A stretch of DNA of 64,000 nucleotides from Niastella caeni (GTDB lineage Bacteria > Bacteroidota > Bacteroidia > Chitinophagales > Chitinophagaceae), in contig NZ_STFF01000006.1 of assembly GCF_004834005.1 (NCBI RefSeq), positions 1 to 64,000 on the forward strand, written 5' to 3'. The first letter of the stretch is position 1; each line of letters begins with the position of its first letter. A program made the translations under genes and the position numbers. Below are positions 4,712 to 23,371 of this stretch, in pieces. A model generated the notes under the pieces. The model was not told where the DNA came from, did no database searches, and worked only from the letters and a program-made list of their open reading frames with translations.

Positions 4712-4928
4712 AGAGTAGTTTAAGCTATTGAATTGTATAATTATGAACAGTGAATAATGATTGCTGGTGCAATCATGTTCAAATAATTAGGATAGGCAAT
4801 TACGATATGGCACGAAATTACTTTCAGGCAGAACCCGCAACAATACCTGATGTCAGGTATTTTGGTTCATATACTTAACCGATGATATATTTAACTGTGA
4901 GGGATAATATGAGGGGACTTTCAGATCA

Positions 4929-5552
4929 TCACAATTCATAAATAAATCGAAGAAAATCATTTTCGCCTTTCAGTCCGGCTTTTAACTTTATGTTCTTTCG
5001 ATGTGTTTCAACAGTATAAAAAGAGAGGTTAAGCTTTTCGGCAATCTCCTTGGTTTTTAAACCCGCTTTTATCAGGGTAATGACTTCCAGTTCGCGCGGA
5101 GAAAGTTTCAATGCTTTTAAAAAATTGTCGTCGGCATGATTGCTTTTCCCAGAAGTATTTGGAAAGTAAAAGCCGCCTGAATGCACTGTTTGAATAGCCA
5201 GTATCACATCCTCAGCAGAAACCGTTTTAAATAAATACCCGCGTATGCCGGATTTCCGGAATGTTTCGGTATACCGTTCTTCATGGTACATACTCAGGAT
5301 CAATATCTTCAGGTTGGGATGATTTTCAAGCAACAAACGGGTCAGTTCCAGCCCATTGATATAAGGCATATTGAAATCTACAAGCACTATTTCAGGTTCC
5401 AGTTCTCTGATAGCCCGTAAGGCTTCGCGGCTATCATATATCCTCGATAGCACTTCAATGCCGGGTTCCGGCTGCAACATGGCACATAAACCGTCGCTAA
5501 AGAGCCGGTGGTCGTCAATGATCAGTATTTTAATTTTTTCATTTGTTGTCAT
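4929..5552 (-). CDS. NarL/FixJ-family response regulator
   Basis: A 207-residue regulator. The N-terminal receiver domain shows the acidic pair in ILIIDDHRLFSDG, the likely phospho-acceptor Asp in IVLVDFNMPYINGLEL, and the switch-region Lys in RGYLFKTV. The C-terminal LuxR-type helix-turn-helix reads LSPRELEVITLIKAG and KEIAEKLNLSFYTVETHRKN. The frame is open to 5612, but the Met at 5552 is the better start: it is preceded by a purine-rich GGAG about 8-10 nt upstream, and the receiver domain begins directly after it. It overlaps the 3' end of the histidine kinase gene by 14 nt, which points to translational coupling and a cognate pair. Targets are unknown; the FG-GAP protein gene downstream is a candidate. 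Confidence 0.93.
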   Translation of the reverse strand: MTTNEKIKILIIDDHRLFSDGLCAMLQPEPGIEVLSRIYDSREALRAIRELEPEIVLVDFNMPYINGLELTRLLLENHPNLKILILSMYHEERYTETFRKSGIRGYLFKTVSAEDVILAIQTVHSGGFYFPNTSGKSNHADDNFLKALKLSPRELEVITLIKAGLKTKEIAEKLNLSFYTVETHRKNIKLKAGLKGENDFLRFIYEL

Positions 5553-7380
5553 AAGGGATCTCCAGTATAACGAGCGTACCATTACTGTCGCTTTCAAAAT
5601 TAAGTCTTGCACCGATATAAGCAGCTCTGTGCCTGATATTTTTCAAACCAATGCCCTGCTCTGAACCGTTACCGGCTTTTGCCATCCCGCTTCCATTGTC
5701 TTCAACCATCACTACCAGACTTTTATCCTGGTAAATGACCTGAATAAAAGCCGCTTTGGCCCCGGCGTGCTTAATGATGTTCGTAATAAGTTCATTTACG
5801 ATGCGGTAAATAAACAGTTCTGTAACCGGATTTAGTTTTACCATGCTACCTGTTTGTACAAAATCAAAAGATATAGCAGGATGTTCTATAAACTTATTAA
5901 CGGTATGCCGCAAAATATCGGGCAGTTCGTATTCATTAAAGTTTATATGCATCAGGTTATGACTGATATTCCTTATATCGTGGAGAATAGTTTCAATTTC
6001 CTTTTCTATAACCGGGTAATCTTTTTTAAGGACCAGCATGTTTTTAACCGCTGCAAGGGAGTTGCCTACTTCATCGTGCAGATCACGGGCAATGCGCTCC
6101 CGCTCATCTTCCTGTATCGTGATGATCTGTTGTTGAACCTTATTTAGATCGACCTGAACCCTTAGTTTTTCTTTAATGGCTTTTGAAAAATGGAAGCCCA
6201 TTCCTAACACCATGCATAATATTTCAATGAGTGGGGTAAAGAAATAAATATCGGTATTCTGGTTCACACCGTCTATCCATTGCAGATCGGCCAGCATTAA
6301 TATAGATGCTATGATCAGGGTTGATAAAAAACCTGACAGATACAGGTATACGACCAGATCTTTACTGGCGATTCGAATGCAGATGGAAAAAAGAATAAAG
6401 GCATTAACAAAGAATATAATATAATAGGAGAAATAACCAAGCCACCAGCGTATGGCATCAGGCAATGGCAAAAAGAGGAGCGCTATCGCTATCAGGCAAA
6501 ACAACCAACCGCTGCAAATGCCTGTGTAGTACAGCCATCTGAAGCGATGTGATTTGAGATTTAATAATACAACAGTGAATAAACAAGACCATCCCACCAG
6601 CCAGTAATAAAAGATTGTAGTGAAGGTATTGATCATGGGTTGATGCTGTTTATCAGATATAAATGCATGCATCAATCCTGAATTAGCCAGTAATAGTGTA
6701 AAAAAACTCAGGCAATAAATGCTATAGTATAAATATACCTTATGCGCAATAAAAAAATATAAAACGAGCCCCACCAATGCCGCCAGTACGATCATACCTT
6801 CAATAAAACAAAACGCCATGCTAAACAGGTATTCATAATTCTGAAAATAACGCTTTGTTTGCAGGTTAAGAATATTGGCATGCCGGCCAAACTGCCGCTG
6901 TGTATATAAATAGCACGTAATTGTATCATTCTTTTGCAAAAAAAGGTTATAGACAAAATGCAGGGAGTAAAAGGGTCTTTGAGACATCTTCAGAAAGTGC
7001 CCGGTAAGCGGATATTTCTCCAGGGAGTTATGCCGCATCACATACAATTGCACACTATCTACCCGGTTTTGCTGAACTTTCAATACCCAGTTTATATTGT
7101 CAGAAGAATTGGTAAGAGTAAATTTACACCAGCCGGCCGGCCAGTGAAAACCATAATGCACATCCTGTTTGTATTGATTTTGTATAAATTGCTCCTGTGA
7201 GGCGTTGCGAACCTTTTCGATATCATGTATGCCGGTATGCTGGTTGGTATATAGCCATACACTGGAGTTGAGTACAACGTTATCTTCATTGTTTTTCAAT
7301 GTAACTATGGGCTGGCCATAAAAAATGGAAGGGTTTATACAAGCAACAAATAATAATAATTTCAAATAGACTGTTCTCAT
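5539..7380 (-). CDS. 7TMR-DISM sensor histidine kinase (HisKA_3 type)
   Basis: A 613-residue membrane sensor. After a leader peptide (LLLFVACINPSIFYG) comes an extracytoplasmic domain of about 160 residues resembling 7TMR-DISM extracellular domain 2, then a block of about seven transmembrane helices (roughly residues 185-400). A short coiled-coil linker leads to the HisKA_3 dimerisation helix with the phospho-acceptor His in RIARDLHDEVGNSLAA (about residue 430). The C-terminal ATPase domain has the N box NELITNIIKHA, the G1 box VEDNGSGM and the G2 box GIGLKNIRHRA. It should phosphorylate the response regulator that overlaps its 3' end. The 7TMR-DISM sensory domain in this phylum is thought to bind carbohydrates or related ligands; the actual ligand is not evident. 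Confidence 0.92.
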   Translation of the reverse strand: MRTVYLKLLLFVACINPSIFYGQPIVTLKNNEDNVVLNSSVWLYTNQHTGIHDIEKVRNASQEQFIQNQYKQDVHYGFHWPAGWCKFTLTNSSDNINWVLKVQQNRVDSVQLYVMRHNSLEKYPLTGHFLKMSQRPFYSLHFVYNLFLQKNDTITCYLYTQRQFGRHANILNLQTKRYFQNYEYLFSMAFCFIEGMIVLAALVGLVLYFFIAHKVYLYYSIYCLSFFTLLLANSGLMHAFISDKQHQPMINTFTTIFYYWLVGWSCLFTVVLLNLKSHRFRWLYYTGICSGWLFCLIAIALLFLPLPDAIRWWLGYFSYYIIFFVNAFILFSICIRIASKDLVVYLYLSGFLSTLIIASILMLADLQWIDGVNQNTDIYFFTPLIEILCMVLGMGFHFSKAIKEKLRVQVDLNKVQQQIITIQEDERERIARDLHDEVGNSLAAVKNMLVLKKDYPVIEKEIETILHDIRNISHNLMHINFNEYELPDILRHTVNKFIEHPAISFDFVQTGSMVKLNPVTELFIYRIVNELITNIIKHAGAKAAFIQVIYQDKSLVVMVEDNGSGMAKAGNGSEQGIGLKNIRHRAAYIGARLNFESDSNGTLVILEIPYDNK

Positions 7381-8345: not shown

Positions 8346-8828
8346 TTACTTGTTTAAAAGATTGCCAATTATTTGATTCATTTCAATGTTGGCAATCGCT
8401 AAGCTTTTTTCGCTCAATACTTTCCGCGTTTTGGCATCAATAAAAGTTACTATGCCTGTTGCTATTGATCTGTTTTTGCCATGTATAAAGCCACAGACTT
8501 GCATCATTCTGCCTACGCCTTTTCGCCTGGTTTCGTAAATCTGCATGTAAAGGGAAGATCTTTTTAGCTCGGCCTTTGACTTTTCAATGGTCGAATCATC
8601 CGTCAAATCATTCGTGATAATCACCAATCCTTTTGAGGCATAGGGAATAATGTTTTTGCCAAATCTTTCGCCATTGGCTTTGCATATACTGCACCAATCG
8701 GCTCGATTTATGACTGCAAATATTTTGGATGGATAGACAGTCGGTTGAATACCGTTAGTCTCTTGTCCGTGAGACAAGAAAGTAATTGACATTGAAAGGA
8801 GGCTGAAAAATGTTTTTAATTTGTTCAT
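8346..8828 (-). CDS. Exported thioredoxin-like protein
   Basis: A 160-residue protein when started at the second Met (8828), which gives a good signal peptide (KTFFSLLSMSITFLSHG); eight extra codons upstream are possible but less likely. A thioredoxin-like fold is suggested by the CxxC motif in RADWCSICKANGERFG near residue 50 and by the strand GLVIITNDLTDD. The active-site CSIC differs from the usual CGPC. A third Cys is found in MMQVCGFIHG. The role is probably periplasmic thiol-disulfide exchange or metal handling. It is 57 nt downstream of a small sigma factor gene on the same strand, so the two probably form an operon. Confidence 0.65.
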   Translation of the reverse strand: MNKLKTFFSLLSMSITFLSHGQETNGIQPTVYPSKIFAVINRADWCSICKANGERFGKNIIPYASKGLVIITNDLTDDSTIEKSKAELKRSSLYMQIYETRRKGVGRMMQVCGFIHGKNRSIATGIVTFIDAKTRKVLSEKSLAIANIEMNQIIGNLLNK

Positions 8829-8885
8829 TTTATCGTTTTTTGATATAAACATTTATACCAAATTAAACGAAGTATCACCCAGGCA

Positions 8886-9428
8886 TTAAAATTTATTTCC
8901 GCTTTCCTTTCTAATCTGTTCTATGCATTTGTATTTTTGATTTGATGCGGTGTGTTTATTTTTCCAGCCCATTTTTAACATTAGCCTATCCATAGGCTCG
9001 TTTAAGAAAAATATAGCTTTCAAAATGCGTTGGCAGTTGGCGGTAATTTTATCAAGCCAGGTCGCTAGTTTTTCTTCTTTGCAGTTTTGGTTGGCTTCCG
9101 AATCGAAATTTATTGTCTCAATTTCATCGACAGTAATACCAATAATGAAACCTTTTTTGCTTCTGATTTTTTTTAGCCAAAGATTTTTGGATATAGAAAA
9201 AAGGTAAGTCTTTAACGAAGAGGTCAGAATAAAATCGGGTCGCCTTAATTTATCAAGCAAAACTAAAATAGACTCTTGAAAAATATCCTCGGCATCCTGA
9301 TCATTGCCACTATTTTTCTTTATATAATTAGCTGTCGAAGGAAAATGAGCTTTGTATAGCAAATTGTATGCATCATTTTCTTCCATCCTCAATTTATCAA
9401 GTAATATATTATCTGCTATTTCTGGCAT
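8886..9428 (-). CDS. Small ECF-type sigma-70 factor
   Basis: A 180-residue protein. Region 2 is visible in YNLLYKAHFPSTANYIKK, DQDAEDIFQESILVLLDKL and LKTYLFSISKNLWLKKIRS. Region 4 is short and divergent: CQRILKAIFFLNEPMDRLM followed by KHTASNQKYKCIEQIRKES, where a helix-turn-helix is expected. No FecR-like anti-sigma gene follows; instead a thioredoxin-like exported protein is next on the same strand. A redox-linked control is possible but is only an inference. The start at 9428 fits the usual N-terminal helix. Confidence 0.8.
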   Translation of the reverse strand: MPEIADNILLDKLRMEENDAYNLLYKAHFPSTANYIKKNSGNDQDAEDIFQESILVLLDKLRRPDFILTSSLKTYLFSISKNLWLKKIRSKKGFIIGITVDEIETINFDSEANQNCKEEKLATWLDKITANCQRILKAIFFLNEPMDRLMLKMGWKNKHTASNQKYKCIEQIRKESGNKF

Positions 9429-9641: not shown

Positions 9642-9671
9642 AAAAAACCTTCAAGGTCAACGACTTGAAGG
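9642..9671 (-). terminator. Terminator of the SusCD/TlpA/M16 operon
   Basis: Eight-bp stem CCTTCAAG/CTTGAAGG with an 8-nt loop; on the minus strand it is followed by a run of Ts (AAAAAA at 9642-9647 on the plus strand). It sits about 50 bp past the stop of the M16 peptidase gene. The rest of the 9429-9724 gap holds nothing I recognise. Confidence 0.7.
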
Positions 9672-9724
9672 CTTCAATTTTCCGCGGGCCTGTAGGTTAC
9701 AACTTTCGAACCTGTTGAAATATA

Positions 9725-12664
9725 TTAAAATCCAAACAGCTCGTTTACCGACAAGGTCTGTAACGTTCCATATTTCTTTAATTCGTCGGGATTGATCCGT
9801 TTGTCGGATGCAATTACACAATATGTATAGTGCTTCCCTGAAAGTGTTTCTTTATGAAATTTATAAACGTCGTCTAAGGTCAGGTTGCCGTATTGAGCAT
9901 AATTATCCTTACGAAGATCATGATCTATCCCTTTTTGTTGTGCTGTAAGATAATCTGTAATGATCGCATCTTCTGTGATCCTTTCCGTCTCTATGTTCTT
10001 CATCAACCCTGATTGGGCGTTTTTAAAGCTCCCTTCCGTTTTTGGCAGTTCGTTTAAAAGCTCATTCATGCCTGCAATGGCATCGTTCATTTTATCGGCC
10101 TGACATCCCACATATGCAACCATTGAAAAGTTATCATTTTTCTTTTCCGGTATACTGATCTGTGCATAGGTGGCATATGCCAAAGCTTTTGATTCTCTGA
10201 TGGTAGAAAAAACAACAGATCCCATGTCTCCTCCAAAATAACTGTTGAATAAATTTATCAATGCTTCCTGCCGGGAGTCATATGCCGACAAATTTTTCAC
10301 CCAAAAGATCTCTGACTGTACCGCATCATAATTTGTGAATAACACTTTATTGCTTTCCTGCGGTACACGTTCAAATTTTGCAGCCTCGGGAGAAGGTAGC
10401 CAGGAAGAAGGCAGCTTATGCAGCTCCTTAACTTTTTTGATTAAACCGGCAACCGGCTGCGGGCCGTAATAACAGATTCTATGCTGATAATTGAATAAGG
10501 CATGCAATACATTGGTCAGGTCTTCCGGTTGTAATGCTTTAAGCTCATTATTCGACAGGGTATAATTAAAGGGGTTGCTCGCACCATACATAGCATAGGA
10601 TTGCAAAGCCCTTGCGATCGCACCTTTGTTCAACAGACTGTTTGACCGGGCTTTGAATAAAGTATTTTGCAGGCCCTGCAATGCCTTCAGATCTGGTTTG
10701 CAATTTTTCAGCAACACTGAAAAAAGGCTTACTGCTTTATCAAAATTCTCATTCAAACCTGTTATAGAAATAGTTGTTTGCTCGCCTCCTGTGTAAATGT
10801 TGAAACTGCAGGCGAGATTGTAAAACTGCTTGCTGATCTCCTCAGAAGACCACTTGTCGGTGCCTAAATATTCTAAATACTGCGCAGCTACAGGTAATAA
10901 TTTATTGTTCCTGTTTCCCATATCGAACCGGTATGATAGCTCAAACAGCTCATTTTCCCTGTTTTGAACGTACAGTACCCCGGCGTTTGACAGGTTGGTT
11001 TTTTGAAGGTCTTTATCATATTCAACCCAAACCGGCCTGATTGCGGGAAATGGTGTTTCAAGAATGGAATGAACAAAGGGGGATGTTTTGTCTTCATTGG
11101 TCACTACAGGCGTAATAGGAGGTTTATCTACCTTCACCGTGTTTTTATCCTCGCCTTTTCTTTTATAAAGTATCACATAATTCCTGTCGGTAAAGAACCG
11201 GTTGGCGAATGCAACGAGTTCTTTTTTCGTCACCTTACCCATTTCTTCTGTCATGGCTATGGCTTTATTCCATTCCAATCCTTTAAATTTAATGAACTCA
11301 TCCACCAGGTTTTCGACACGGCTCGCGTTATTCTTCAGGGATTGCAACTTGTCTAATTTATTATTGGCCACAACTGCCCTGATCAACGATTCATCAAAAT
11401 GCCCGCTTTTCAGGTCTTTCAATTGCGCATGTATCAATTCCTTTGCGTCATCAAGACTTTGCCCCTGCCCTGGTGAAGCCACCAGAAAGAATACGCCATA
11501 ATCATTGAACTGCCACAGTACAGCGCCTGCGCCTAACACTTTTTGTTGTTTATTCAGGTTCAGATCGATCAGGCCTGCTTTCCCATTGTAAAGTACTGCG
11601 GATGCCAGGTTCGCCAATAAAGCATCCCTTGTACCTGCCGGCGCCGAGCGATACAGCAAGCGTATACTTTCTGCCGTTGGGCCAAACACTTCTTTAACGA
11701 CGGGCCCTTCAATATCCTTCTCTTTAGTTCCCTGGTATGCCTGCAGCGGTGCAGGCCGCATATAAGCAAACTGGCGGTCTATTTTTGCGATCAATTCATC
11801 AGCATTAAAATCACCCGCCATGATAATAGCCATATTATTGGGCACATAATACTTCTTATAATATTCTTTAATAGCCTTTATTGATGGATTCTTCAAATGC
11901 TCAATGGTGCCAATAGTGGTTTGAAGTCCGTAATTATGCGTGGGAAACACAGTCGAGAACATGGCTTCCTGCATTTTGTTATTGTCATTGTCCAGCGCCC
12001 TGTTCTTTTCTTCATATACGGCTTCCAGCTCGGTATGAAATATTCTTAGAACGGGGTTCCGAAAACGTTCAGCCTGTATGGCCAGAAACTTATCAATGGC
12101 ATTGGCCGGAATATCTTCTTCATACACTGTTTGTTCAACGGAAGTATAAGCGTTGGTTCCCTGGGCGCCCAGGGCCGTCATCATTTTGGAATACTCGCCG
12201 GCGATAGCAAACTTTGCCGCTTCACCGGAAACTTTATCTATCTCCTTATAAATTTCCCTGCGTTTCGCATCGTCTTTTGTTGAATTATATTGTTCATATA
12301 AATTCTCAATCTTCAAAAGCAATGGTTGCTCCTTTTCCCAATCCAGTGAACCGTATTTGTCGGTACCCTTAAATAATAAATGCTCCAGGTAGTGGGCTAA
12401 ACCAGTATGGTCTTTGGGATCATTGTTGCTGCCTGTTCTTACAGCGATCCTGACTGCTATGCGGGGTTCTTTTGTGTTTTTGGAAAGAATGACCGTGAGG
12501 CCATTCTTCAAAGTATAAAAACGGGTTCCGGTTGGGTCGTTGGTCACATACTTATAATTGTACCCGCCAGCAGCTCCCTGCTTCCAGTCGTAACTTTTCT
12601 GGGCATATGTTGCAATAGAAAAAAAGATCGATAATAAAACCGAACAATATATTACTCTTATCAT
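9725..12664 (-). CDS. M16-family zinc metallopeptidase (insulinase/pitrilysin type), exported
   Basis: A 979-residue protein with signal peptide (VLLSIFFSIATYAQ). The first catalytic half has the inverted zinc motif HYLEHLLFKGT (HxxEH) near residue 90 and the distant metal-binding Glu region LEAVYEEKNRALDND near residue 220. The second half (from about residue 500) is a related domain without the zinc motif. This two-domain chain is the M16 layout, in which the two halves close around a peptide substrate. The enzyme should act in the periplasm on oligopeptides. It is the last gene of the leftward operon, only 6 bp after a TlpA-like gene, and is followed by a terminator. Its place behind SusC/SusD suggests that it degrades what the transporter brings in. 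Confidence 0.93.
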   Translation of the reverse strand: MIRVIYCSVLLSIFFSIATYAQKSYDWKQGAAGGYNYKYVTNDPTGTRFYTLKNGLTVILSKNTKEPRIAVRIAVRTGSNNDPKDHTGLAHYLEHLLFKGTDKYGSLDWEKEQPLLLKIENLYEQYNSTKDDAKRREIYKEIDKVSGEAAKFAIAGEYSKMMTALGAQGTNAYTSVEQTVYEEDIPANAIDKFLAIQAERFRNPVLRIFHTELEAVYEEKNRALDNDNNKMQEAMFSTVFPTHNYGLQTTIGTIEHLKNPSIKAIKEYYKKYYVPNNMAIIMAGDFNADELIAKIDRQFAYMRPAPLQAYQGTKEKDIEGPVVKEVFGPTAESIRLLYRSAPAGTRDALLANLASAVLYNGKAGLIDLNLNKQQKVLGAGAVLWQFNDYGVFFLVASPGQGQSLDDAKELIHAQLKDLKSGHFDESLIRAVVANNKLDKLQSLKNNASRVENLVDEFIKFKGLEWNKAIAMTEEMGKVTKKELVAFANRFFTDRNYVILYKRKGEDKNTVKVDKPPITPVVTNEDKTSPFVHSILETPFPAIRPVWVEYDKDLQKTNLSNAGVLYVQNRENELFELSYRFDMGNRNNKLLPVAAQYLEYLGTDKWSSEEISKQFYNLACSFNIYTGGEQTTISITGLNENFDKAVSLFSVLLKNCKPDLKALQGLQNTLFKARSNSLLNKGAIARALQSYAMYGASNPFNYTLSNNELKALQPEDLTNVLHALFNYQHRICYYGPQPVAGLIKKVKELHKLPSSWLPSPEAAKFERVPQESNKVLFTNYDAVQSEIFWVKNLSAYDSRQEALINLFNSYFGGDMGSVVFSTIRESKALAYATYAQISIPEKKNDNFSMVAYVGCQADKMNDAIAGMNELLNELPKTEGSFKNAQSGLMKNIETERITEDAIITDYLTAQQKGIDHDLRKDNYAQYGNLTLDDVYKFHKETLSGKHYTYCVIASDKRINPDELKKYGTLQTLSVNELFGF

Positions 12665-12670
12665 TATAGC

Positions 12671-13798
12671 TTATTTAAAAATTACAGCCAGTTTGGCTTC
12701 TAACATTTTTCCCATCAGGGTCTTCCCAACAATAACGCCGTTGGGATCAATTAAAAAATTCTGAGGAATTGCCTGCACGCCGTATAATTTTGCCGCCGGG
12801 CTATCCCAAAACTTCCCGTCAGAAAGCTGTAACCATGGAAGCCCATCTTTTTTAATAGCGGCTAACCACGCTGCTTTACTGTCAGACTTGTCTAGAGAAA
12901 CACCAATGATCGTAAAATTCCGGTCTTTAAATTTGTTGTAGATATTAATGAGGTTGGGGTTTTCAGCGCGGCACGGCCCACACCAGGAAGCCCAGAAGTC
13001 GAGCAGTACATACCTGCCACGAAATGATGAAAGTTTAACCAGTTTACCTTCCGTATCGGGTATTTCAAAGTCAGGCGCTGGTTGCCCTATTGCTGTCGCT
13101 CTCATCTTTTCCAGGTTATCGGCCAATTTTTTACCGTCCTTACTGTTTTTAACTTCCGGTGACAATCCGTCAAATAAAGGTTTAACCATACTATAAGGCT
13201 GTTCATAAGCGATCTTGGGAAACAATTGCAAACCCAGCATGGAGGAAGGGTGCGTTTTTATGAACCTTACGTATGCGTCCATTGTCGCATCACTAAACCT
13301 TTTCCGAAAACCCTCCAGCATGGTCTCATAATCCGGCGTGTTCTGTGGTGATATTTTCCCCTCCATAAACATTTTGTCTTCGGCTGTCATATTTGAGCAA
13401 GCGGCATCCACAAGGTTGTTCAAATCGTTATCATCGTTATTATAGGGAGTTCCGGTTACCTGCGAACCAATAACGGTGGCTCCTTTCGCCGCAAACTTAA
13501 TCATACCAGGCTCTATATAAACCGGTCGTTGTTCCATACTATTGGTTCTCCCCACGCCTTTGGTATCAAAGATCAGTGTGGCCATTACCGGCGTATTGGT
13601 TGCCTTCCCGGTGAATTTAAAAAAACCATTTTTCAACACAACCGAATCTATAATAGCGGCATCCCCCATGCTATACTCCAGGTATGCCTTGGCTGGTTTA
13701 TTAAAAGTGCCATATCTGCCATCGATTATAAATCCTTTACTGCTCTGACCAAAAGCAGTCAGCCGTATCATTGCCAGTACTATAATTAATTTTTTCAT
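12671..13798 (-). CDS. TlpA-like thiol-disulfide protein with N-terminal DUF4369-type domain
   Basis: A 375-residue exported protein with a short leader (LIIVLAMIRLTAFGQ). The first 120 residues look like the DUF4369 beta domain common in Bacteroidota TlpA proteins (IDGRYGTFNKPAKAYLEYS, KNGFFKFTGKA). The C-terminal redoxin domain, from about residue 235, has the active site DFWASWCGPCRAENPNL and the cis-Pro in AIPQNFLIDPNG. The likely role is disulfide reduction or exchange in the periplasm. It lies between another TlpA-like gene (57 bp upstream) and the M16 peptidase (6 bp downstream). Confidence 0.9.
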   Translation of the reverse strand: MKKLIIVLAMIRLTAFGQSSKGFIIDGRYGTFNKPAKAYLEYSMGDAAIIDSVVLKNGFFKFTGKATNTPVMATLIFDTKGVGRTNSMEQRPVYIEPGMIKFAAKGATVIGSQVTGTPYNNDDNDLNNLVDAACSNMTAEDKMFMEGKISPQNTPDYETMLEGFRKRFSDATMDAYVRFIKTHPSSMLGLQLFPKIAYEQPYSMVKPLFDGLSPEVKNSKDGKKLADNLEKMRATAIGQPAPDFEIPDTEGKLVKLSSFRGRYVLLDFWASWCGPCRAENPNLINIYNKFKDRNFTIIGVSLDKSDSKAAWLAAIKKDGLPWLQLSDGKFWDSPAAKLYGVQAIPQNFLIDPNGVIVGKTLMGKMLEAKLAVIFK

Positions 13799-13855
13799 TG
13801 CTTTTATAAGTCATTTGTTTTGAAAACAGGCGTTGCGATCAGGAAGCCAGCGAAC

Positions 13856-14773
13856 TTATTTAAATAATTCCTCCAGCCTGGCTTCGAGCGCTTTTCCATG
13901 CAGGTTCATTACAATTATATTTCCCTTTTTATCGATCAGGAGATTTTTGGGAATAGCTGTAATACCATATTTTTTGCTGATGGGTGAATCGAATCCTTTA
14001 CCGTCGCTGAGGTTGGTCCAGGGGTAGCCATCTTCCCGGATGGCTTTTTTCCACCTGGCGGCATCCGTATCCAGCGAAACGCCTATTACGCCCAGCCCTT
14101 TCGCTTTGTATTTTTTGTACAATGGCAACAACGCCCTGGCCTGTGAACGGCAAGGCGCACACCAGCTTGCCCAGAAATCGATGAAAGTATATTTGCTGGC
14201 GGCCGTGATGGTTTTGGTAGCCACTTTTTTCCCTTCCGTATTCGCCATGATAAAATCTTCATATTGCAGGATCACGGCTGGTTTATCAGGAGCCGCCGCA
14301 ATTTTTTCTTCCCCGGCACCTGGGGATGCGCCCTCTTTATCGTTTACCACCAGCGTATACGCTGCGGAGGAAGGCGGCAAACACATTTCATCGGTGCATG
14401 CCATGTATTTGATCCGGAAACGTAATGTCGTTTTCTGGTCGGCTTTCAACTGAATGGTTTGCGAAAAAGTAACGCCTCCTGCATAATACGCCACCCCGCT
14501 ATTTGACGGTTCAACCCCTTTTTCCTCCAGCTTCCCGATCAGTTCCACATTGGGATCTTTCTCAAACGTAATCGTGGTAGGCATTCCTAACCCGCCTGCA
14601 AAAGTCTGCGGATAGATGTGAAACGGTTCATTGATCGATGCCGTGAAATGTATTATATAAGTGCGTGGTGCAGTAGAATCACTATTAAATTTCCAGGAAA
14701 CCGGGTGGTTGTCCTGAGCCTGGCCATGAAAAACTGCCAGGCTCGCTAACCACAAAAAAATCATCGATCTCAT
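13856..14773 (-). CDS. Fusion of DsbD N-terminal-like domain and TlpA-type thioredoxin
   Basis: A 305-residue exported protein with a signal peptide (IFLWLASLAVFHGQAQ). Residues about 20-140 resemble the periplasmic alpha domain of DsbD: a beta sandwich with the paired cysteines in YMACTDEMCLPPSSA, matching DsbD's C-x5-C followed by PP. The second half is a thioredoxin fold with DFWASWCAPCRSQARALL and cis-Pro in AIPKNLLIDKKG. It lacks the membrane electron-transfer domain of DsbD, so it joins an electron acceptor module directly to a thioredoxin. It could relay electrons between a membrane DsbD and substrates of the locus. Neighbouring genes are 22 bp upstream and 57 bp downstream. Confidence 0.85.
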   Translation of the reverse strand: MRSMIFLWLASLAVFHGQAQDNHPVSWKFNSDSTAPRTYIIHFTASINEPFHIYPQTFAGGLGMPTTITFEKDPNVELIGKLEEKGVEPSNSGVAYYAGGVTFSQTIQLKADQKTTLRFRIKYMACTDEMCLPPSSAAYTLVVNDKEGASPGAGEEKIAAAPDKPAVILQYEDFIMANTEGKKVATKTITAASKYTFIDFWASWCAPCRSQARALLPLYKKYKAKGLGVIGVSLDTDAARWKKAIREDGYPWTNLSDGKGFDSPISKKYGITAIPKNLLIDKKGNIIVMNLHGKALEARLEELFK

Positions 14774-14795
14774 ATTGTATGCATTGAGTTACTTA

Positions 14796-16091
14796 TTACC
14801 CTTTATACCTTGCTTTGGTGATCTCTACCATTGACTTCAGCTTATAATATTCCCGGTCGGTGGAACCGGCATAGCCGGAGCTGTAGAACCGGATATTTCC
14901 CAACGGATCAAATACGATTTTGGTGGGCGTTCCCTGAACATCATAGGCTTTGTTGTCCTGATCCTGCAACACATCGAGCGTTATACCCTTCTTAGCTACA
15001 AATGATTGTACGGTGGCCTGTTCTTCGAACAGGTTCACTACGAATAGTTGAAAAGCCTCTTTTTTGTAATCAGCCACCACCCGCTCAAAGCCACTGAATG
15101 CGGCCACACAGGGCGTACACATGGTAGTCCAGAAATCCAGCGCCAATACTTTTCCTTTATAGTTACCCAACTGAACGGGTTTGCCATTCAGATCCACCAT
15201 CACAATATCTTTCACCGGTTGTTTGGCCTGGAAGAGCTTCATGGGTTTCGCGTCTTTACGTTGATTGGGAAAAAATCCATCTAAGGTTGTTTGGGGAGAA
15301 GCGATGTATAATTTCGCCACTTCTTTATAACATTCCTGGTAGGCTTCCTGCTGTAGTTCTTTGAGGTATTTTTCAAATCCTTTGTCGGAACCTTTCACTT
15401 TGGTGTACACCTGTCTGAAGGTATTCACCATAACGGGTTTTGAATCCGCCTCGCGGAAAGCTTTGCTTAAGGTATCGAATGCCACCTGGTGTTTCCCCGC
15501 TGCTGACAACACGATGGCATACCGGTTCAGGTAATTGGCTCTGGCATCCCTGAAATATTTCATATCGCGCATCCCGTCTTTCACCTCCGAAGAACCGGCC
15601 AGCATTTTTTCGGCGATGGCTATGTTTCCCAATTGGGCATTCACCGCGGCATTTATTTCCATGACAGGCTGCGTTCTGCCGATGGGATCACTGATTGTTC
15701 CGTCTGTTATGTCTTTCAATATTCCTGCCGACACTTTCTCCAGTTCGGCCGGGTTCTTATTGGCATCCAGCAGGTATTCCATGGCATAGGTAAGATACAT
15801 GAGCTGCAATACATTGAATTTCGGTTTGGTGTTCTTGTAATACCAATACCGTTCAAAGTTTCCATGTGAAAGCCATCCCAGCGCCAATTGCGCCCGGTAT
15901 TCCTCATACATGGATGGTTTGGCAGGGTCAATGGGAGTTGCCTTCAACATTTCGTCGTATTGCTTCTCCTGATCTTCTACGTTCACGATCAAAACAAAGT
16001 CTTCAAAATTATAATTCGTGGGTTTTACCTGCTGCGCAAAAACAGGGCTCGAAATCAATAAAAGCAAAATTATCCTTTTCATATTCTTCAA
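14796..16091 (-). CDS. TlpA-family redoxin with helical N-terminal region
   Basis: A 431-residue exported protein (leader RIILLLLISSPVFAQQ; the Met at residue 4 is an equal start candidate). Residues about 30-280 are mainly helical, TPR-like, without a family I can name. The C-terminal domain from about residue 290 is a redoxin with active site LALDFWTTMCTPCVAAF and cis-Pro in GTPTKIVFDPLG. CTPC replaces CGPC. It is 7 bp downstream of susD, so it is probably translated from the same transcript. It is the first of three consecutive thiol proteins in the locus. Confidence 0.88.
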   Translation of the reverse strand: MKNMKRIILLLLISSPVFAQQVKPTNYNFEDFVLIVNVEDQEKQYDEMLKATPIDPAKPSMYEEYRAQLALGWLSHGNFERYWYYKNTKPKFNVLQLMYLTYAMEYLLDANKNPAELEKVSAGILKDITDGTISDPIGRTQPVMEINAAVNAQLGNIAIAEKMLAGSSEVKDGMRDMKYFRDARANYLNRYAIVLSAAGKHQVAFDTLSKAFREADSKPVMVNTFRQVYTKVKGSDKGFEKYLKELQQEAYQECYKEVAKLYIASPQTTLDGFFPNQRKDAKPMKLFQAKQPVKDIVMVDLNGKPVQLGNYKGKVLALDFWTTMCTPCVAAFSGFERVVADYKKEAFQLFVVNLFEEQATVQSFVAKKGITLDVLQDQDNKAYDVQGTPTKIVFDPLGNIRFYSSGYAGSTDREYYKLKSMVEITKARYKG

Positions 16092-16098
16092 ATTTGTA

Positions 16099-17553
16099 TT
16101 ACTTATTCTCAGTTAACCCCTTGTTTTCGGCCAACATGCGTTCGCCGAATTTCAGGGCAAATCGTTCAGGCTTCAGCGTATAGGTGGCCACTACATTGCC
16201 TGCATCATCATAAAGCTTGTGTGTATATTTAACCGTATTGCTGTAAACCGGGTCTACTGAAAGCCGGCGCATATCCATCCAGCGCATGCCCGAGGTGGCG
16301 AATTCACGAATACGCTCATCGAGAATGAAACGAACCAGCGCTTCTTTATTACTTGCTGTGTTCACTGGTACAGCTACGATATTTGCAGGCATTCTTTTGG
16401 CGCGCAACACTTCCAGGTCGCTCTTTGCGCCCGTAAGGTCACCTGCCCTTGCTTTTAACTCGGCCCGCATCAGGTACAGGTCGGGTAACGAAGGGCCTAC
16501 CTGCAATCCGCTGAATAACGCAGCGGAGTAACGCCGCATGCCACCGGGAAATATTATACCCGGATCGAACATTTCTGTTTCGGAGAACAACAGCAGCCTG
16601 TAATCCATAGGATCGTACAAGGCCGCTGTTTCGGGTGAGAACACATAAGTATTAGCCTGCTGAAATTGAAAATTGATCATGCTGAGATTGTACATCACCT
16701 CCGTATTATTGGCGGCCAATGGAAAGTTGGAAAGCCCGAAGCCGAAGTCGGGGAACCAGGAGTCGATGTTGTTTTCGTCCAACACGATATTGTAATCGTA
16801 TAACTCCAGGGGGATCGTGGCCTTGCCCAGTTCAGCAAATCCCGCATCCACATGTGTTCTGGATTCATTGAACTTTGCCATATACAAATAAACACGGGCC
16901 AGGAGGAGTTCGGCCGCCACCCGCGAAAATTTTCGCCGGTGGGTCAACGGCTCCAGATCAGGCAAGGCATCTGCAAGGTCTTTTAGGATGAAATCATAGC
17001 TTTCCTGCACGGAAGCCCGTACAAATGAAGACTGGGTTACATCTGCTTTGGTAAGCAGTGGCACACCCGGGTCGGTAGCTGCGGTAGCTGCATTATAAGG
17101 CAACGAATAATCATTGAGAAAATAAAGATAGCAAAGCGCCCTGCCTACTTTGGCCTGCGCCAGGATCGCCTTTTTTTGCTGATCGGTACCACCCTGCGAC
17201 TGCATCACTTCGTTGATGACCTTATTGAAGGTATAGATGCTGGTGAGATGCCAGGTTTCGGATGGAAGCTGATCTTCATCATACACCCTGTCTTCATACC
17301 TGAATAACCGTTGCGACCTGATGGCGGCGGCATCCATATAAGATTGCTGGGCGGCCATTTCATCACCCAGGTACAAAGAGGGAGCGTAAAGCACCTGGAG
17401 CGCTACAGCGTTCATCAATTGTTCATAATCGAGCGTTGTTTTTGCTATGCGCGAACCCTTGGCCTCAATTTCCAAAAAGTCTTTGGAACAGGCGGTTTGA
17501 AGAAGCAGCCCTATAAAAAAAAATGGTATTGATATTTTATGAATTGATCTCAT
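16099..17553 (-). CDS. SusD/RagB-family substrate-binding outer-membrane lipoprotein
   Basis: A 484-residue lipoprotein: signal peptide with lipobox LLQTAC, lipidated Cys at about residue 22. The N-terminal part has TPR-like helices (KVGRALCYLYFLNDYSLPYN) and the end has the conserved WMDMRRLSVDPVY region of the family (LDERIREFATSGMRWMDMRR). SusD proteins cap the SusC channel and capture the substrate at the cell surface. It follows the SusC gene by 20 bp and is followed 7 bp later by a TlpA-like gene. The substrate cannot be read from sequence; the neighbours contain no glycosidase, so a peptide is more likely than a glycan. Confidence 0.93.
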   Translation of the reverse strand: MRSIHKISIPFFFIGLLLQTACSKDFLEIEAKGSRIAKTTLDYEQLMNAVALQVLYAPSLYLGDEMAAQQSYMDAAAIRSQRLFRYEDRVYDEDQLPSETWHLTSIYTFNKVINEVMQSQGGTDQQKKAILAQAKVGRALCYLYFLNDYSLPYNAATAATDPGVPLLTKADVTQSSFVRASVQESYDFILKDLADALPDLEPLTHRRKFSRVAAELLLARVYLYMAKFNESRTHVDAGFAELGKATIPLELYDYNIVLDENNIDSWFPDFGFGLSNFPLAANNTEVMYNLSMINFQFQQANTYVFSPETAALYDPMDYRLLLFSETEMFDPGIIFPGGMRRYSAALFSGLQVGPSLPDLYLMRAELKARAGDLTGAKSDLEVLRAKRMPANIVAVPVNTASNKEALVRFILDERIREFATSGMRWMDMRRLSVDPVYSNTVKYTHKLYDDAGNVVATYTLKPERFALKFGERMLAENKGLTENK

Positions 17554-17573
17554 AATTGTAAAGCTGGTTTTGA

Positions 17574-20500
17574 TTAAAGAGTGAGGTGTGCGCCAACGGT
17601 AATGGTACCCTGTCCTGTACGGATATTCCGGTAACCATCAGGCGATTGAAACTCAGGGTCGATGCCGAAATTATTTTTCTTCCAGAGCATGAGATTCGAT
17701 ACCTGTGCCCGGAACGTCAATCCCTCTGCGCCTATCCGTTGTACAAAACCCTTTTCGAGGGAGTAGGAAAGCGTGATCTCCCTGATCTTTGCGTAAGAAG
17801 CGTTAAAGGAGTTCAGATTTGAGTACTGATAATATAAATCATTTCTGGCATTCGCGATACTGCTGTTATAGGCAAACCTCGGGATATTGGTTTTGTTTTC
17901 GTCGCCCGGTGCCTTCCAACGATTGGCGAATTCGGGTTGAATGTTATTTTGATACAGAGGTTCACTCCACACCCGGTTGAAATCACGGAAAAGCACATGT
18001 CCTACATTGAAACTGATATTAACGCCTAACTGAAAACCTTTGTAAGTAAACGTATTGAACAACCCGCCGGTCCAGATCGGTTGAGAAGTTCCCGCCAAAT
18101 GAACATCTTCCCGTTTGGAACCGTTCTTTGCAGACAATATTTTTCCATCGGCCTGAATGATCTGGGGATCGCCGGATGCATTCAGCCCGCCATTTATAAA
18201 CTCGAATAACGCATACGCAGGTTTTCCTTCCGCGAAAGCGGAATTGATCATACCTGTACCGGTGGTGATGGCAGTAGCATTGGCCATCCGGGTTATTTTA
18301 TTTTTATTGTAGGCCACATTCAGCACGGTGATCCAGCCGAAATTTTGTTTATTGATGTTGATGGAGTTCAGGCTGAATTCGATGCCTTTATTCTCGAGAT
18401 CGCCATAATTGCCAATAACGGTAGCATACCCTGTGAGGGGGGCCGTCATCAGGGGGCCGATGAGGTAGGTAGTTTTTTTCACATAAAGATCAATCGACCC
18501 GCCGAATCTCGATCTGAAAAAAGTAAAATCCAACCCGGTATTGTAGATCTTTGTCCCTTCCCAGGAAAGCTTATCGTTCCCGGGTGTTGCCACTATTAAA
18601 CCCACGCCATTCACATAGTTAACGTTTGAAGAAGCCTGCAGAATATCGAAAGAGGCGGCTTGTGCCGGCCGGGGCGCATTACCCGTTATGCCATAAGTGA
18701 ATCGTACGTTCAGCCGATTCACCCAGTCCACCGATTTCATGAAGGCTTCGTTATTCAGCAACCATTTGCCGCCAATGCTGTACACCGGTCTGTTCTGTGC
18801 GGATTTGGCAAGGCCGAATAAATTACTCTGATCAATTCTCCAGCTCGCATTCAACGCATACCTGCGATCATACATATAACCTAGTGTAGAATAATAGGAA
18901 GTCGTTCTGGCCACAGCGCCTTCGCCCCCCCTTACGTTATTACTGTCCAATACCCTTGTTCCACCGGGTATGGTGCCGGTAATTCCCTTCATCAGCATAT
19001 CGATATTTACAGGCCGGCCAACCTGCAACTGGTCATCCCAACCGTAATAGATAGCTTCAGCAGTAAGCGGCGTAATACTGGTGGCTTCCTGACCAAACAG
19101 TACCGTCAACTGATGCGGATCCCAGTTCCGGTCGAATACCAGTTGGTTTCGAACCGTCCAGTTTTTTTGTGACGCATTCTTAACGGTGAGCATGCCGCCA
19201 TCTTTCGGCAACCAATACGTGGGATTACTGGTACTGGTAGGAGACTGCGTAAACTTAACCAACTGGTCCCTTACCACATAACTTTCCTGGTCCTGTGTCA
19301 AACGGCTGTTCCTTGAAAACGTCTGGTAGCCATACGTACCTTCAAAGCGAAGGCCTTTCAATATTTGCAATCGGGCGCTTCCTACTACCCGGCCCGCAAT
19401 CAGATTGCTCTTTGCGTGCGCCCGGTTCATTTCATCTATGGGTACATAATCGAGGTTAACCCGGCTTCTGGCAGCGTAGTCGAGCCTGAGCGAATCGCTG
19501 TAACTACCGAGAAAGTTTACTGCCAGGGGATTCCCTGCATGATCGCGAAAACGCTGGTAAGGCACAAACGATACGTCGGGAGCCGTAATGCCGTTACCGA
19601 GATTGCCAGCACTTGCTACGGTATTTGTAAGATCGGTTATTAATGACAGTTGTAGTCGCTTGTTAAGATTGAAATCCTGCCGAAGGTTCAATTTATAGGT
19701 ATTGTTCTTCTCTCCGCGGGTGCTGCTTTGAATGCCGGTATAGCTCACCGATCCGTAAAAACTGTACACGTTCCCACCTCCTGAAAGCGAAACCGTATGA
19801 TTGGTGGTGGCCGCCTTTCTATAAAAAACATCAGCGATCTCTCCCCTGTTATCAAGGCTTGCCAGGCTGTCTAAACTTTTATCAGCCTGCTGTGGGGTGA
19901 TCAGTCCGCGGTACTGGTCATACTGGATCTGTAGATGCGGGGGAACGGGAACGATCGACTGCACCGAACTCCAGTTATTATACGGTGCATATTGCGGAAA
20001 GATCTCTTTGGCAACGGCAATAAATTCCCGGCTGTTCAATTTGGGAACATATGCGCGGTCGGGCCTGCCCTGGAAATTATAATACCCATCGTATTCAACC
20101 CGAAGTTTTTGTGCTGCTTTACCTTTTTTGGTAGTAATAACGATCACGCCGTTGGCGGCTTTGGCGCCCCAGATAGAAGCGGCAGACGCATCGCGCAGAA
20201 TGGTGATGTCTTCAACGTCCTGCGGATTGATGTTAGAAATAGGATTAGATATATTGAATACATTGTTACGGGAATCATCGCTGGTGTTATCGGAGGGCAA
20301 TTCCACCCCGTCTACCACGATCAGCGGCGACCTGGTAGAATTGAGCGAAGTTAACCCCCGGATCAGCAAGGGCTCTCCGCCGGGTGCGTTGTTCACTACC
20401 ACCCCGGGTGCTAACCCATCCAGTCTTTGCAGAATGTTGGTACTGCCCGACCGGGTGGCAACAGTAACCATGTCTACTTTGGCCACCGAACCGGTATTTC

Positions 20501-21203
20501 GCTCCCGGGTAATTTTCTGGTAGCCTGTAGAAACCACTTCTGCCAATTCAAGCACCTGTTCCGAAGGAACAAGCACAACCGTTATCACTTGTGCATCTGT
20601 TATTATAATTTCCTTTTCATTGAAGCCAACAAAAGTTATTAAAAGCACTTCTCCTTTTTCAGCTTCCAGTTTAAACATGCCATTCTCATCACTCACCACC
20701 ACTTTTACGCTTCCTTTTACCCGGATGGTGGCCCCTCTTAAAGGATTCTTATTATTATCTGTTACCTTTCCTGTTACCATTATCTTTTGCGATGGAGAAC
20801 CAGAAAATTTCACCTCTTTTTCGCGCATCACTACCACATTGCCCTGCTTCATCTCAAAAGTGAGTTTCTCCGGTTTCAAAATGGCAGTCAAAAAATCAGC
20901 CAGCGGCATCTGGCGCGCATCGATTGTTACAGGGTTCGTATTCTTTATGTACTCATCATTGTAAAAAACAGTAACGCCGGTTTGTTTTTCAACGATCTTG
21001 AAAACATTCCGCAAAGGTTCCTTCTGTAAATTCGCTGTAACAGATTGCGCCAGTCCTGCAGCCTGCACCTGAAATAAAAAGGCAGTTAATAAAACAATTG
21101 TCAGTTTCATTGCTAACAGCGTTTTGGTTGAAACCGTCGGGTAGCTACAGGCACAACGGGCCGTTCCAGGCCACGACGGCTGGTTTAAAGCAGAAAATGT
21201 CAT
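17574..21203 (-). CDS. SusC/RagA-family TonB-dependent transporter with STN domain
   Basis: A 1209-residue outer-membrane transporter. Two starts are possible: 21203, or the Met at 21110 that leads directly into the signal peptide LTIVLLTAFLFQVQAAGLAQ; extended N-termini of this kind are frequent in the family. After the signal comes an STN (secretin/TonB N-terminal) signalling domain (NVFKIVEKQTGVTVFYNDEY), then a carboxypeptidase-D-like plug extension (VTGKVTDNNKNPLRGATIRV), the TonB plug (NILQRLDGLAPGVVVNN; DVEDITILRDASAASIWGAK, close to the SusC signature) and the barrel. The STN domain fits control through the FecR anti-sigma protein encoded upstream. The 264-bp gap to fecR contains a perfect 18-bp inverted repeat. 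Confidence 0.94.
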   Translation of the reverse strand: MTFSALNQPSWPGTARCACSYPTVSTKTLLAMKLTIVLLTAFLFQVQAAGLAQSVTANLQKEPLRNVFKIVEKQTGVTVFYNDEYIKNTNPVTIDARQMPLADFLTAILKPEKLTFEMKQGNVVVMREKEVKFSGSPSQKIMVTGKVTDNNKNPLRGATIRVKGSVKVVVSDENGMFKLEAEKGEVLLITFVGFNEKEIIITDAQVITVVLVPSEQVLELAEVVSTGYQKITRERNTGSVAKVDMVTVATRSGSTNILQRLDGLAPGVVVNNAPGGEPLLIRGLTSLNSTRSPLIVVDGVELPSDNTSDDSRNNVFNISNPISNINPQDVEDITILRDASAASIWGAKAANGVIVITTKKGKAAQKLRVEYDGYYNFQGRPDRAYVPKLNSREFIAVAKEIFPQYAPYNNWSSVQSIVPVPPHLQIQYDQYRGLITPQQADKSLDSLASLDNRGEIADVFYRKAATTNHTVSLSGGGNVYSFYGSVSYTGIQSSTRGEKNNTYKLNLRQDFNLNKRLQLSLITDLTNTVASAGNLGNGITAPDVSFVPYQRFRDHAGNPLAVNFLGSYSDSLRLDYAARSRVNLDYVPIDEMNRAHAKSNLIAGRVVGSARLQILKGLRFEGTYGYQTFSRNSRLTQDQESYVVRDQLVKFTQSPTSTSNPTYWLPKDGGMLTVKNASQKNWTVRNQLVFDRNWDPHQLTVLFGQEATSITPLTAEAIYYGWDDQLQVGRPVNIDMLMKGITGTIPGGTRVLDSNNVRGGEGAVARTTSYYSTLGYMYDRRYALNASWRIDQSNLFGLAKSAQNRPVYSIGGKWLLNNEAFMKSVDWVNRLNVRFTYGITGNAPRPAQAASFDILQASSNVNYVNGVGLIVATPGNDKLSWEGTKIYNTGLDFTFFRSRFGGSIDLYVKKTTYLIGPLMTAPLTGYATVIGNYGDLENKGIEFSLNSININKQNFGWITVLNVAYNKNKITRMANATAITTGTGMINSAFAEGKPAYALFEFINGGLNASGDPQIIQADGKILSAKNGSKREDVHLAGTSQPIWTGGLFNTFTYKGFQLGVNISFNVGHVLFRDFNRVWSEPLYQNNIQPEFANRWKAPGDENKTNIPRFAYNSSIANARNDLYYQYSNLNSFNASYAKIREITLSYSLEKGFVQRIGAEGLTFRAQVSNLMLWKKNNFGIDPEFQSPDGYRNIRTGQGTITVGAHLTL

Positions 21204-21376
21204 AACTTGGTTCTGGTTTGGTTGATAATAAGCAGTTGTCTCGAAATAATAATTGCTTTATTGACTGGCCTGTTATTCACCGGAGATGTTCTCAGCATCT
21301 TCGGTTTTTTTATCAGGCAGCCTGTTGGTTATTTCATCTGAAAATATTAATTGTTGTTTGGCCAGATGGATCTTAC

Positions 21377-21426
21377 CATGACAAAATTTTCATTGCCCTG
21401 TGTGTCATAATGAAAATTTTGTCATG
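21377..21426. repeat. Perfect 18-bp inverted repeat between fecR and susC
   Basis: CATGACAAAATTTTCATT at 21377-21394 is repeated in reverse complement at 21409-21426 with a 14-nt spacer. It lies in the 264-bp gap between the FecR gene and the SusC gene. It may end or stabilise the sigma/fecR transcript, or be an operator of the susC promoter. There is no long T run, so a simple intrinsic terminator is less likely. A second small palindrome, TCATCATGATGA, is at 21433-21444. Confidence 0.7.
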
Positions 21427-21467
21427 GACGATTCATCATGATGATATTTTAAGTTTTAAATTTTGAG

Positions 21468-22685
21468 TTATCCGGGGAGTATGACCAGCTTCCTGTTTCC
21501 TTCCAATTTGTAGCGAAGCCCAACGTTCCCGAGGAAATAAAGAACATCGGTAAAAGGCAGGCTTCTCTTAATGGTGCCGCCAAGCTGCAACCTGGGCACC
21601 GGTTGTTCATACACCACCTCAATATCATACCATCTTGCCAACTGCCGCATAGCTTCTTCCAGTGGAACATTTTCAAAATCGAATACGCCTGCTTTCCAGG
21701 CAACAACAGCAGCTACATTTACATCGTTGTATACCCTGATAGGGTCATTCCCTTTCGTCATCAGCGCCTGCTGTCCCGGCGAAAGCACTTTGAACAATTG
21801 CGTATTGGCCTGGTTCACTCCTACCTTAACTGATCCCTGCAGCAGGGTTGTACGAACAGCTCCTTCATTTTCATAAGCATTCACATTAAAATGGGTACCG
21901 AGCACTTCAACCCAGGTGCTTCCATTAACGTCTACCCTGAAAGGAGTAGAAGCTTTATGGGCTACCTCCAGGTATACTTCGCCTGCAACGTGAATCAATC
22001 TTTCTTTGCCGGTGAATGCTATAGGATAACGGATGGAACTTTCTGCGTTCAACCAAATGTTCGTTCCATCTGAAAGTTTTAGCTGAAATTGTTTACCCTT
22101 CGGAGTAGAGATGGTGTTGTATAGTACTTTGGAGCCGGTTCCTTCATAAAGCAATACGCCATTCCTGATACTGGCAACAACGCCACCCTGTAAGGCTATG
22201 TTACCATTTTGTATGGTATCTAAAAGTACTTTTGATCCATCAGCTAATGTAAGTAAAGTGCCCGTTTTCCCAGGCTGTACATTTTCGGTTGATCGCACGA
22301 TCTCAGCAGGTGAGTTTCCCTTTTTATTCTGAAACCAGCCGTAAACGCCAATACCTGCTATAAATGCTATGGACGCTGCTACCGCCCACCATTTTCGTAT
22401 AAAATGAACCCGGTGAACAGGAGCCATCGTTGGAACTACCTCATTTTCATCAGGCAATGACCTGGCTGGATAGCGGTCAAGGATATTCCTGATCATCATT
22501 TGCTGTTGCTCGTCGCTGAACTGCCCTTCGTCTTCCATTTTTTCCCATATTTCCTCAAGGGCAGGAATGATATCCCGTTCGGCAGAGGCAACTTGTAACA
22601 TTTCGATAAGCTCCTGTTTTTCAGCTTCTACGAACTGATCTTTTGCCCACAGTTCCAGCAGTTGCAGTAGTCTGTGATTCACCAT
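21468..22685 (-). CDS. FecR-family anti-sigma factor with DUF4974 C-terminus
   Basis: A 405-residue single-pass membrane protein. The cytoplasmic N-terminal part (residues 1-120) should bind the sigma factor. One transmembrane helix (WWAVAASIAFIAGIGVYGWF, about residue 125) follows. The periplasmic FecR domain is seen in TLADGSKVLLDTIQNGNI, GTNIWLNAESSIRYPIAF and GEVYLEVAHKASTPFRVDV. The C-terminal 70 residues match the DUF4974 domain (DFENVPLEEAMRQLARWYDIEV), which probably contacts the STN domain of SusC. It is 86 bp downstream of the sigma gene. Confidence 0.93.
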   Translation of the reverse strand: MVNHRLLQLLELWAKDQFVEAEKQELIEMLQVASAERDIIPALEEIWEKMEDEGQFSDEQQQMMIRNILDRYPARSLPDENEVVPTMAPVHRVHFIRKWWAVAASIAFIAGIGVYGWFQNKKGNSPAEIVRSTENVQPGKTGTLLTLADGSKVLLDTIQNGNIALQGGVVASIRNGVLLYEGTGSKVLYNTISTPKGKQFQLKLSDGTNIWLNAESSIRYPIAFTGKERLIHVAGEVYLEVAHKASTPFRVDVNGSTWVEVLGTHFNVNAYENEGAVRTTLLQGSVKVGVNQANTQLFKVLSPGQQALMTKGNDPIRVYNDVNVAAVVAWKAGVFDFENVPLEEAMRQLARWYDIEVVYEQPVPRLQLGGTIKRSLPFTDVLYFLGNVGLRYKLEGNRKLVILPG

Positions 22686-22771
22686 TCAACTAATTTATTA
22701 TTATGGATATAAGGCTTCTATATGATAGGAGTAGGCTTTTGTAAAAAAGGGGGTATGCGATCGAAAAAAAA

Positions 22772-23371
22772 TTACAATTTCCTGATCAGGAACGCAATTA
22801 TGATGTTCAGGCCATAGTTCCTGATATAATCAACGATAGAGGAAGAGGCGATCTGAAGATATTTTTTTACTGTTTCCCGGCTGATGTTCATTTCCAGTGC
22901 TATTTCGGCATATTTCTTCCCTTCTAACCGGGCTAGTATCCAAACTTTCTTCTGTTGGGGCGGAAGCCGGTCAATAGCGTGCTGAACCAGGCTATCATAG
23001 GCATCTTTTAATGAGGCCTGATCCCTGACTTCAGGATTATCTAAACTGGTTTGGGTAAGCTGATGCCATTCCTGCCTTTTCCGGTTCTCACGGTCAATAT
23101 TCTTCAGCATCCGCACGGCATGATGCCTGGAGATCACAAATAGCCAGGAACGAAAACTTTCCACGCCTTTGAGTGATTCCCTGGTGAGCCATAGTTGGGT
23201 GAAAATCTCCTGCACTACATCGGAAGCTATATCCCGGTCTTTGGTTAGTTTGACCAGGTAGGTAAAAAGCAGGCCGGAATACATATTCACAAGCATGGAA
23301 AAAGCCTGTTCATCTCCTGTGGAGATCTGCAGAAGCAACTGGCGTTCACTATGCTGATTTATTTTTGACAA
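22772..23371 (-). CDS. ECF RNA polymerase sigma factor controlling the SusCD locus
   Basis: A 199-residue sigma-70 factor of the Bacteroidota expansion type. Region 2: AFSMLVNMYSGLLFTYLVKL, DVVQEIFTQLWLTRESL, FRSWLFVISRHHAVRML. Region 4: AIDRLPPQQKKVWILARLEG then KKYAEIALEMNISRETVKKYL as helix-turn-helix. It heads the order sigma-FecR-SusC-SusD, a known cell-surface signalling arrangement: substrate in SusC signals through STN and FecR to release the sigma factor, which transcribes the uptake genes. Confidence 0.93.
   Translation of the reverse strand: MSKINQHSERQLLLQISTGDEQAFSMLVNMYSGLLFTYLVKLTKDRDIASDVVQEIFTQLWLTRESLKGVESFRSWLFVISRHHAVRMLKNIDRENRKRQEWHQLTQTSLDNPEVRDQASLKDAYDSLVQHAIDRLPPQQKKVWILARLEGKKYAEIALEMNISRETVKKYLQIASSSIVDYIRNYGLNIIIAFLIRKL

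Follow-up and report, generated by a model that had tools for sequence, protein, structure and literature searches.

SusCD transporters are regarded chiefly as importers of glycans, and RagAB and the BT_2264-type SusCD complexes are presumably peptide-binding. In the Fus system of Pectobacterium (FusA/FusC) and in YddB/PqqL of E. coli, a TonB-dependent transporter is encoded together with a periplasmic M16 peptidase composed of two halves (PMC6793856). Among relatives of the Fus-type systems, the protease has been gained and lost, and other proteases or redox enzymes are found instead (PMC6793856). The published survey of such protease-associated import covers Proteobacteria and names SusC only as a distant comparison (PMC6793856). 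In the open-access literature, we found no description of SusCD with M16 or TlpA as a system, and in the one paper there that brings SusD and TlpA together with disulfides, TlpA is a single table entry; since subscription papers lie mostly outside this literature, the result is weak evidence of novelty.

The window analyzed here is a stretch of 64,000 nucleotides from Niastella caeni (contig NZ_STFF01000006.1). ORF calls with Pfam and NCBIfam matches reveal eight genes on the minus strand, running from position 23371 to 9725 in exactly the order originally predicted:

22772 to 23371, minus strand: ECF sigma factor, 199 aa (Sigma70_r2 1.9e-11, r4_2 8.7e-14).
21468 to 22685, minus strand: FecR-type anti-sigma factor, 405 aa (FecR 3.5e-18, FecR_C 1.8e-13).
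17574 to 21203, minus strand: SusC-type TonB-dependent transporter with an STN domain, 1209 aa as called, where an internal ATG may be the true start (TIGR04056 561 bits, STN 8.4e-9).
16099 to 17553, minus strand: SusD-type surface lipoprotein, 484 aa, lipobox Cys22 (SusD-like_3 4.4e-17, SusD_RagB 2.3e-11).
14796 to 16091, minus strand: TlpA1, an all-helical N-terminal region and a ResA-like thioredoxin domain with CTPC (AhpC-TSA 3.4e-15).
13856 to 14773, minus strand: TlpA2, a DsbD-alpha-like domain (C126-x4-C131) and a thioredoxin domain (C205-A-P-C208) (Thioredoxin_8 4e-20; DsbD_N 1.2e-5, which barely passes the cut-off).
12671 to 13798, minus strand: TlpA3, DUF4369 and AhpC-TSA with CGPC (DUF4369 1.1e-13, AhpC-TSA 2.3e-28).
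9725 to 12664, minus strand: M16 peptidase, a two-half clam-shell with H91-x2-E94-H95 (HYLEH) (M16 6.7e-26; M16_C 7.8e-33, in two M16_C stretches).
9644 to 9675, minus strand: intrinsic-terminator-like hairpin downstream of the M16 gene (12 pairs, loop of 8, T-rich tail).

The hairpin stands where a terminator had been claimed. The claimed compactness applies to the part from SusC to M16, with gaps of 20 bp (SusC-SusD), 7 bp (SusD-TlpA1), 22 bp (TlpA1-TlpA2), 57 bp (TlpA2-TlpA3) and 6 bp (TlpA3-M16), and less to the regulator side, where the gaps are 86 bp (sigma-FecR) and 264 bp (FecR-SusC); the sigma/FecR pair is thus somewhat separate from the compact part. As the original prediction had stated, the operon encodes no glycosidase, and the domain search found no carbohydrate-active enzyme of any kind among its genes, although one would be expected in a polysaccharide utilization locus. 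No RNA regulator was found between positions 7000 and 25000 at Rfam gathering scores. On the same strand, 296 bp behind the M16 gene (8346-9428), lie genes for a second ECF-type sigma factor and for a secreted-looking protein of 168 aa with a WCSIC motif. The G+C content of this pair is 0.33-0.37, as compared with a window value of 0.43. Comparison with nine close loci gave no match for the WCSIC protein and, for the second sigma factor, a single match of 27%, in locus L064. Farther along (344-7380, minus strand), genes for a LuxR-type regulator and for a histidine kinase of the 7TMR-DISM type lie beside one for an FG-GAP repeat protein of 1455 aa that has a type IX secretion tail.

The SusC barrel gene directly adjoins that of the SusD lipoprotein, as in SusCD import systems, and the STN, FecR and ECF sigma domains are all present, so that trans-envelope signaling is predicted. 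Nine solved chains match SusC, RagA and BT_2264 among them, and 8YPT/8YPU is the best solved match of both SusC and SusD. While the pair resembles RagAB and the BT_2264-type complexes in this respect, the identity is distant and other SusC homologues match equally well, and the comparison does not separate peptide transporters from glycan transporters. As in Fus and YddB/PqqL, the transporter gene is linked to a full-length M16 peptidase with an intact zinc site. Unlike those systems, the window encodes SusC with a SusD lid, control by STN, FecR and sigma factor, and thiol-disulfide proteins as the constant partner. Since its transporter belongs to the SusC/RagA type (the TIGR04056 score compares with a cut-off of 368) and not to the FusA/YddB family, the window system does not count among the Fus-type systems, although its mode of action may be similar.

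A search of GTDB contigs with the SusD alignment found 163 relatives, and the best 80 of these were read with flanks of up to 10 kb. ORFs in the relatives were called by script, by which short genes may be missed and frames split (L074, L108). The 80 loci come from Chitinophagaceae, Sphingobacteriaceae and Flavobacteriaceae, and in nearly all complete ones sigma factor, FecR, SusC and SusD come first. A TlpA-like gene is the first gene after SusD in 73 of these 80 loci, a count that overstates independence because the loci share descent, and for which we claim no p-value. One to five TlpA-like genes are present in 75 of the 80 operons. In the window genome as background, a same-strand AhpC/TSA-family gene lies within 2.5 kb downstream of only 5 of 95 SusD genes (0.44 expected by chance), and two of those five are the window locus and a C10 paralogue of the same SusD subfamily. 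The recurrence of the SusC-SusD-TlpA core indicates that the gene order is not due to chance, and comparison of 73/80 with 5/95 indicates a far closer association with thiol genes for this SusD subfamily than for SusD generally. Judged by gene content, dozens of related bacteria share this pairing of the importer family with thiol enzymes. The C10 paralogue (G000:C10:62000-81900, L054) has one TlpA with CRPC and no M16. In L171 (G000:C14:280000-290000), L125, L135 and L136, SusCD is followed by an ABC ATPase and an ABC2/ABC_transp_aux membrane protein, without TlpA, and MutS-like ATPases occur in these cassettes of L171, L125 and L135.

Genes for further peptidases are present in the operons, of the S8 (L114, L134), trypsin-PDZ (L068, L070, L073) and Met-zincin DUF4953 (L109, L126) types. 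In total, 15 of the best 80 of 163 loci carry a peptidase, as against one with an adjacent glycosidase. These counts bear on the view that the window holds an ordinary glycan utilization locus whose glycosidases are encoded elsewhere. SusCD with sigma factor and FecR is indeed typical of glycan loci, and the lone operon-adjacent glycosidase among these relatives, a GH95 enzyme in L123, follows TlpA; however, the preponderance of peptidases disfavors this view, which we consider most improbable. Glycosidases in place of the thiol genes, which the original prediction had named as contrary evidence, were not found in the best 80 of 163, and even in L123 the TlpA gene is retained.

All three window TlpA proteins combine a thioredoxin fold with a CxxC motif (CTPC in TlpA1, CAPC in TlpA2 and CGPC in TlpA3), and a reductase role is predicted for them. 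In the TlpA1 model (pLDDT 89), an all-helical region precedes a ResA-like part, which superposes on ResA with Z 16.6 and an rmsd of 1.9 over 134 residues. TlpA structures solved as complexes with copper proteins are matched by TlpA1 as well; among the matches listed, the thioredoxin part alone is covered, and none extends to the helical region. In TlpA2, C126, C131, C205 and C208 are invariant among 13 orthologues. Since the C-x4-C of its first half is presumably the active-site type of DsbD-alpha, TlpA2 could accept electrons from membrane DsbD and pass them on. The window genome encodes DsbD-TM once and the DsbD_N domain only twice, including the copy in TlpA2. Several operons of the relatives, L079, L098, L102 and L103 among them, contain genes for DsbD-TM or DsbD_N proteins. 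These features, together with the ResA-like fold and CxxC, are shared with the ResA/TlpA/DsbD chain; in contrast to that chain, the thiol genes of the window go with a SusCD importer rather than with the maturation of cytochrome c. Across the related operons, CxxC is present in 143 of 151 TlpA-like proteins, and the motifs are reductase-like, chiefly CGPC, CTPC and CAPC. By a simple rule, most of the 151 proteins have a non-lipoprotein signal peptide, which suggests that they are soluble in the periplasm.

The cysteine content of the operon proteins narrows the possible clients of these enzymes. In the window, the sigma factor and FecR have no cysteine, SusC has only residues 17 and 19 and none in its mature part, and SusD has the lipobox Cys and one more, which makes an internal disulfide impossible in FecR, SusC and SusD. 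SusC is also nearly free of cysteine across the relatives: of 74 loci, 56 encode a SusC that lacks cysteine beyond residue 110, and 72 a SusC with no more than one there. Since the transporter has no disulfide to be reduced, the client would be the cargo or other envelope proteins. Members of the TlpA/ResA family often act on targets within the cell, for example cytochrome c and copper sites, and the TlpA proteins might accordingly assist the folding or repair of endogenous envelope proteins, unrelated to the cargo. However, the candidates within the operon are cysteine-poor, and the M16 peptidase, which has five cysteines in the window, is usually missing from the operons. We therefore regard this explanation as very unlikely, and a role of TlpA as a folding helper for SusCD is disfavored by the same counts. 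The client of the thiol proteins is probably the cargo.

Along its entire length, the M16 model (pLDDT 86) matches 9ldy, FusC, PqqL and the insulin-degrading enzyme (IDE), with a Porphyromonas zinc protease included among the matches. The residues H91, E94, H95, E212, E219, R823 and Y830 are shared by all of 13 M16 proteins taken from loci of this kind. By sequence, the protein is a member of a general Bacteroidia M16 family. Among nine other genomes of the genus, eight have one copy of this family, 58-59% identical to the window protein, and one has none, while the window genome holds both the genus-wide copy and the operon copy. On these counts, the operon M16 is an extra paralogue of the housekeeping M16 of the genus. 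The M16-containing gene order, for which conservation across Chitinophagaceae had been anticipated, is not conserved: M16 is present in 9 and missing from 71 of the best 80 of 163 operons, the closest ones included. None of five Chitinophaga loci with an 81-86% identical SusD has M16, though three TlpA genes are present there; tblastn of nine close loci found no M16 remnant, and a conserved M16 in the Chitinophaga locus was rejected. The operon M16 genes require at least five label changes on the M16 tree, a quick-method tree in which some long branches meet, so that the exact number is unsure; as placed on this tree, they stem from several lineages. In L131 (Filimonas zeae), TlpA and a full M16 form a single ORF of 1377 aa (L131:12640-16773), and the equivalents of both parts are neighboring genes in L128. 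In L082 and L089 (Pedobacter), the SusCD operon has one TlpA gene followed by two M16 genes in tandem. Judged by its distribution, M16 is accessory and lies outside the conserved core of these loci. Since it is missing from so many loci, proteolysis may happen elsewhere or not at all. IDE, which is related to this M16, cleaves insulin with its disulfides intact, and thus reduction need not serve the M16 peptidase.

The thiol proteins could act on small disulfides or on metal centers. In the first case, the system would take up small disulfides or thiol conjugates, such as glutathione disulfide or cystine peptides, and M16 would be incidental. The presence of a single TlpA in 34 of the best 80 of 163 loci, and the lack of a peptidase in most of the 80, are consistent with this. 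However, SusCD systems are known for large ligands, and the recurrence of four peptidase families and of a TlpA-M16 fusion also argues against small disulfides, which we consider distinctly unlikely. In the second case, the cargo would be a small metal or cofactor protein or a metallo-peptide (a ferredoxin or a copper peptide, for example); the thiol proteins would reduce the metal site or its Cys ligands, and M16 would destroy the carrier, as in Fus. Fus and YddB/PqqL likewise pair a TonB-dependent transporter with M16, and redox enzymes of the cytochrome c peroxidase family occur in several protease-less clusters (PMC6793856). FusC and PqqL are among the best full-length matches of the M16 model, and the copper-protein complexes matched by TlpA1 point in the same direction, but no metal-transport gene was noticed among the identified operon genes. 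We regard metal-bearing small proteins as unlikely cargo, yet as a serious alternative.

Our preferred reading is that this SusCD operon, under its own regulation, serves to import a disulfide-bearing polypeptide, either a peptide or a small protein, that is reduced by the TlpA proteins and cut by M16; we consider the chances of this reading about even. SusD would take up the cargo at the cell surface, and loaded SusC would signal through STN to FecR, freeing the ECF sigma factor. The cargo would enter through SusC, powered by TonB, and the three soluble TlpA proteins would reduce its disulfides in the periplasm. TlpA2 would obtain electrons through its own DsbD-alpha domain from membrane DsbD, encoded in one copy elsewhere in the window genome, and the M16 clam-shell would cleave the opened chain last. 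In this scheme, we infer what class of substrate is imported, which way the electrons flow, that the proteins reside in the periplasm and that reduction precedes cleavage. The SusCD-TlpA recurrence, the intact catalytic motifs, the Cys-poor transporter, the repeated recruitment of peptidases and DsbD, and the TlpA-M16 fusion support import and reduction. The original prediction is supported in part by the same observations, as regards uptake of a peptide or protein and its reduction; the M16 gene has proved accessory. Nothing favors the toxins, bacteriocins or defensins named there over any other disulfide-bearing polypeptide.

By analogy, the locus is best read as a SusCD importer of proteins or peptides that is combined with a reductive branch and an interchangeable protease and would work like Fus and YddB/PqqL. 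More tentatively, and somewhat short of an even chance, the SusCD-TlpA cassettes may represent a widespread, undescribed class of Bacteroidota importers for reductive scavenging of disulfide-bonded polypeptides, with a swappable protease (M16, S8, trypsin-PDZ or Met-zincin) and sometimes their own DsbD supply. A SusD subfamily with a thiol reductase as its constant partner and repeated gain of peptidases would make protein and peptide scavenging a second business of SusCD, and the question of non-glycan SusCD cargo becomes testable in cultured strains of Chitinophaga, Pedobacter and Sphingobacterium.
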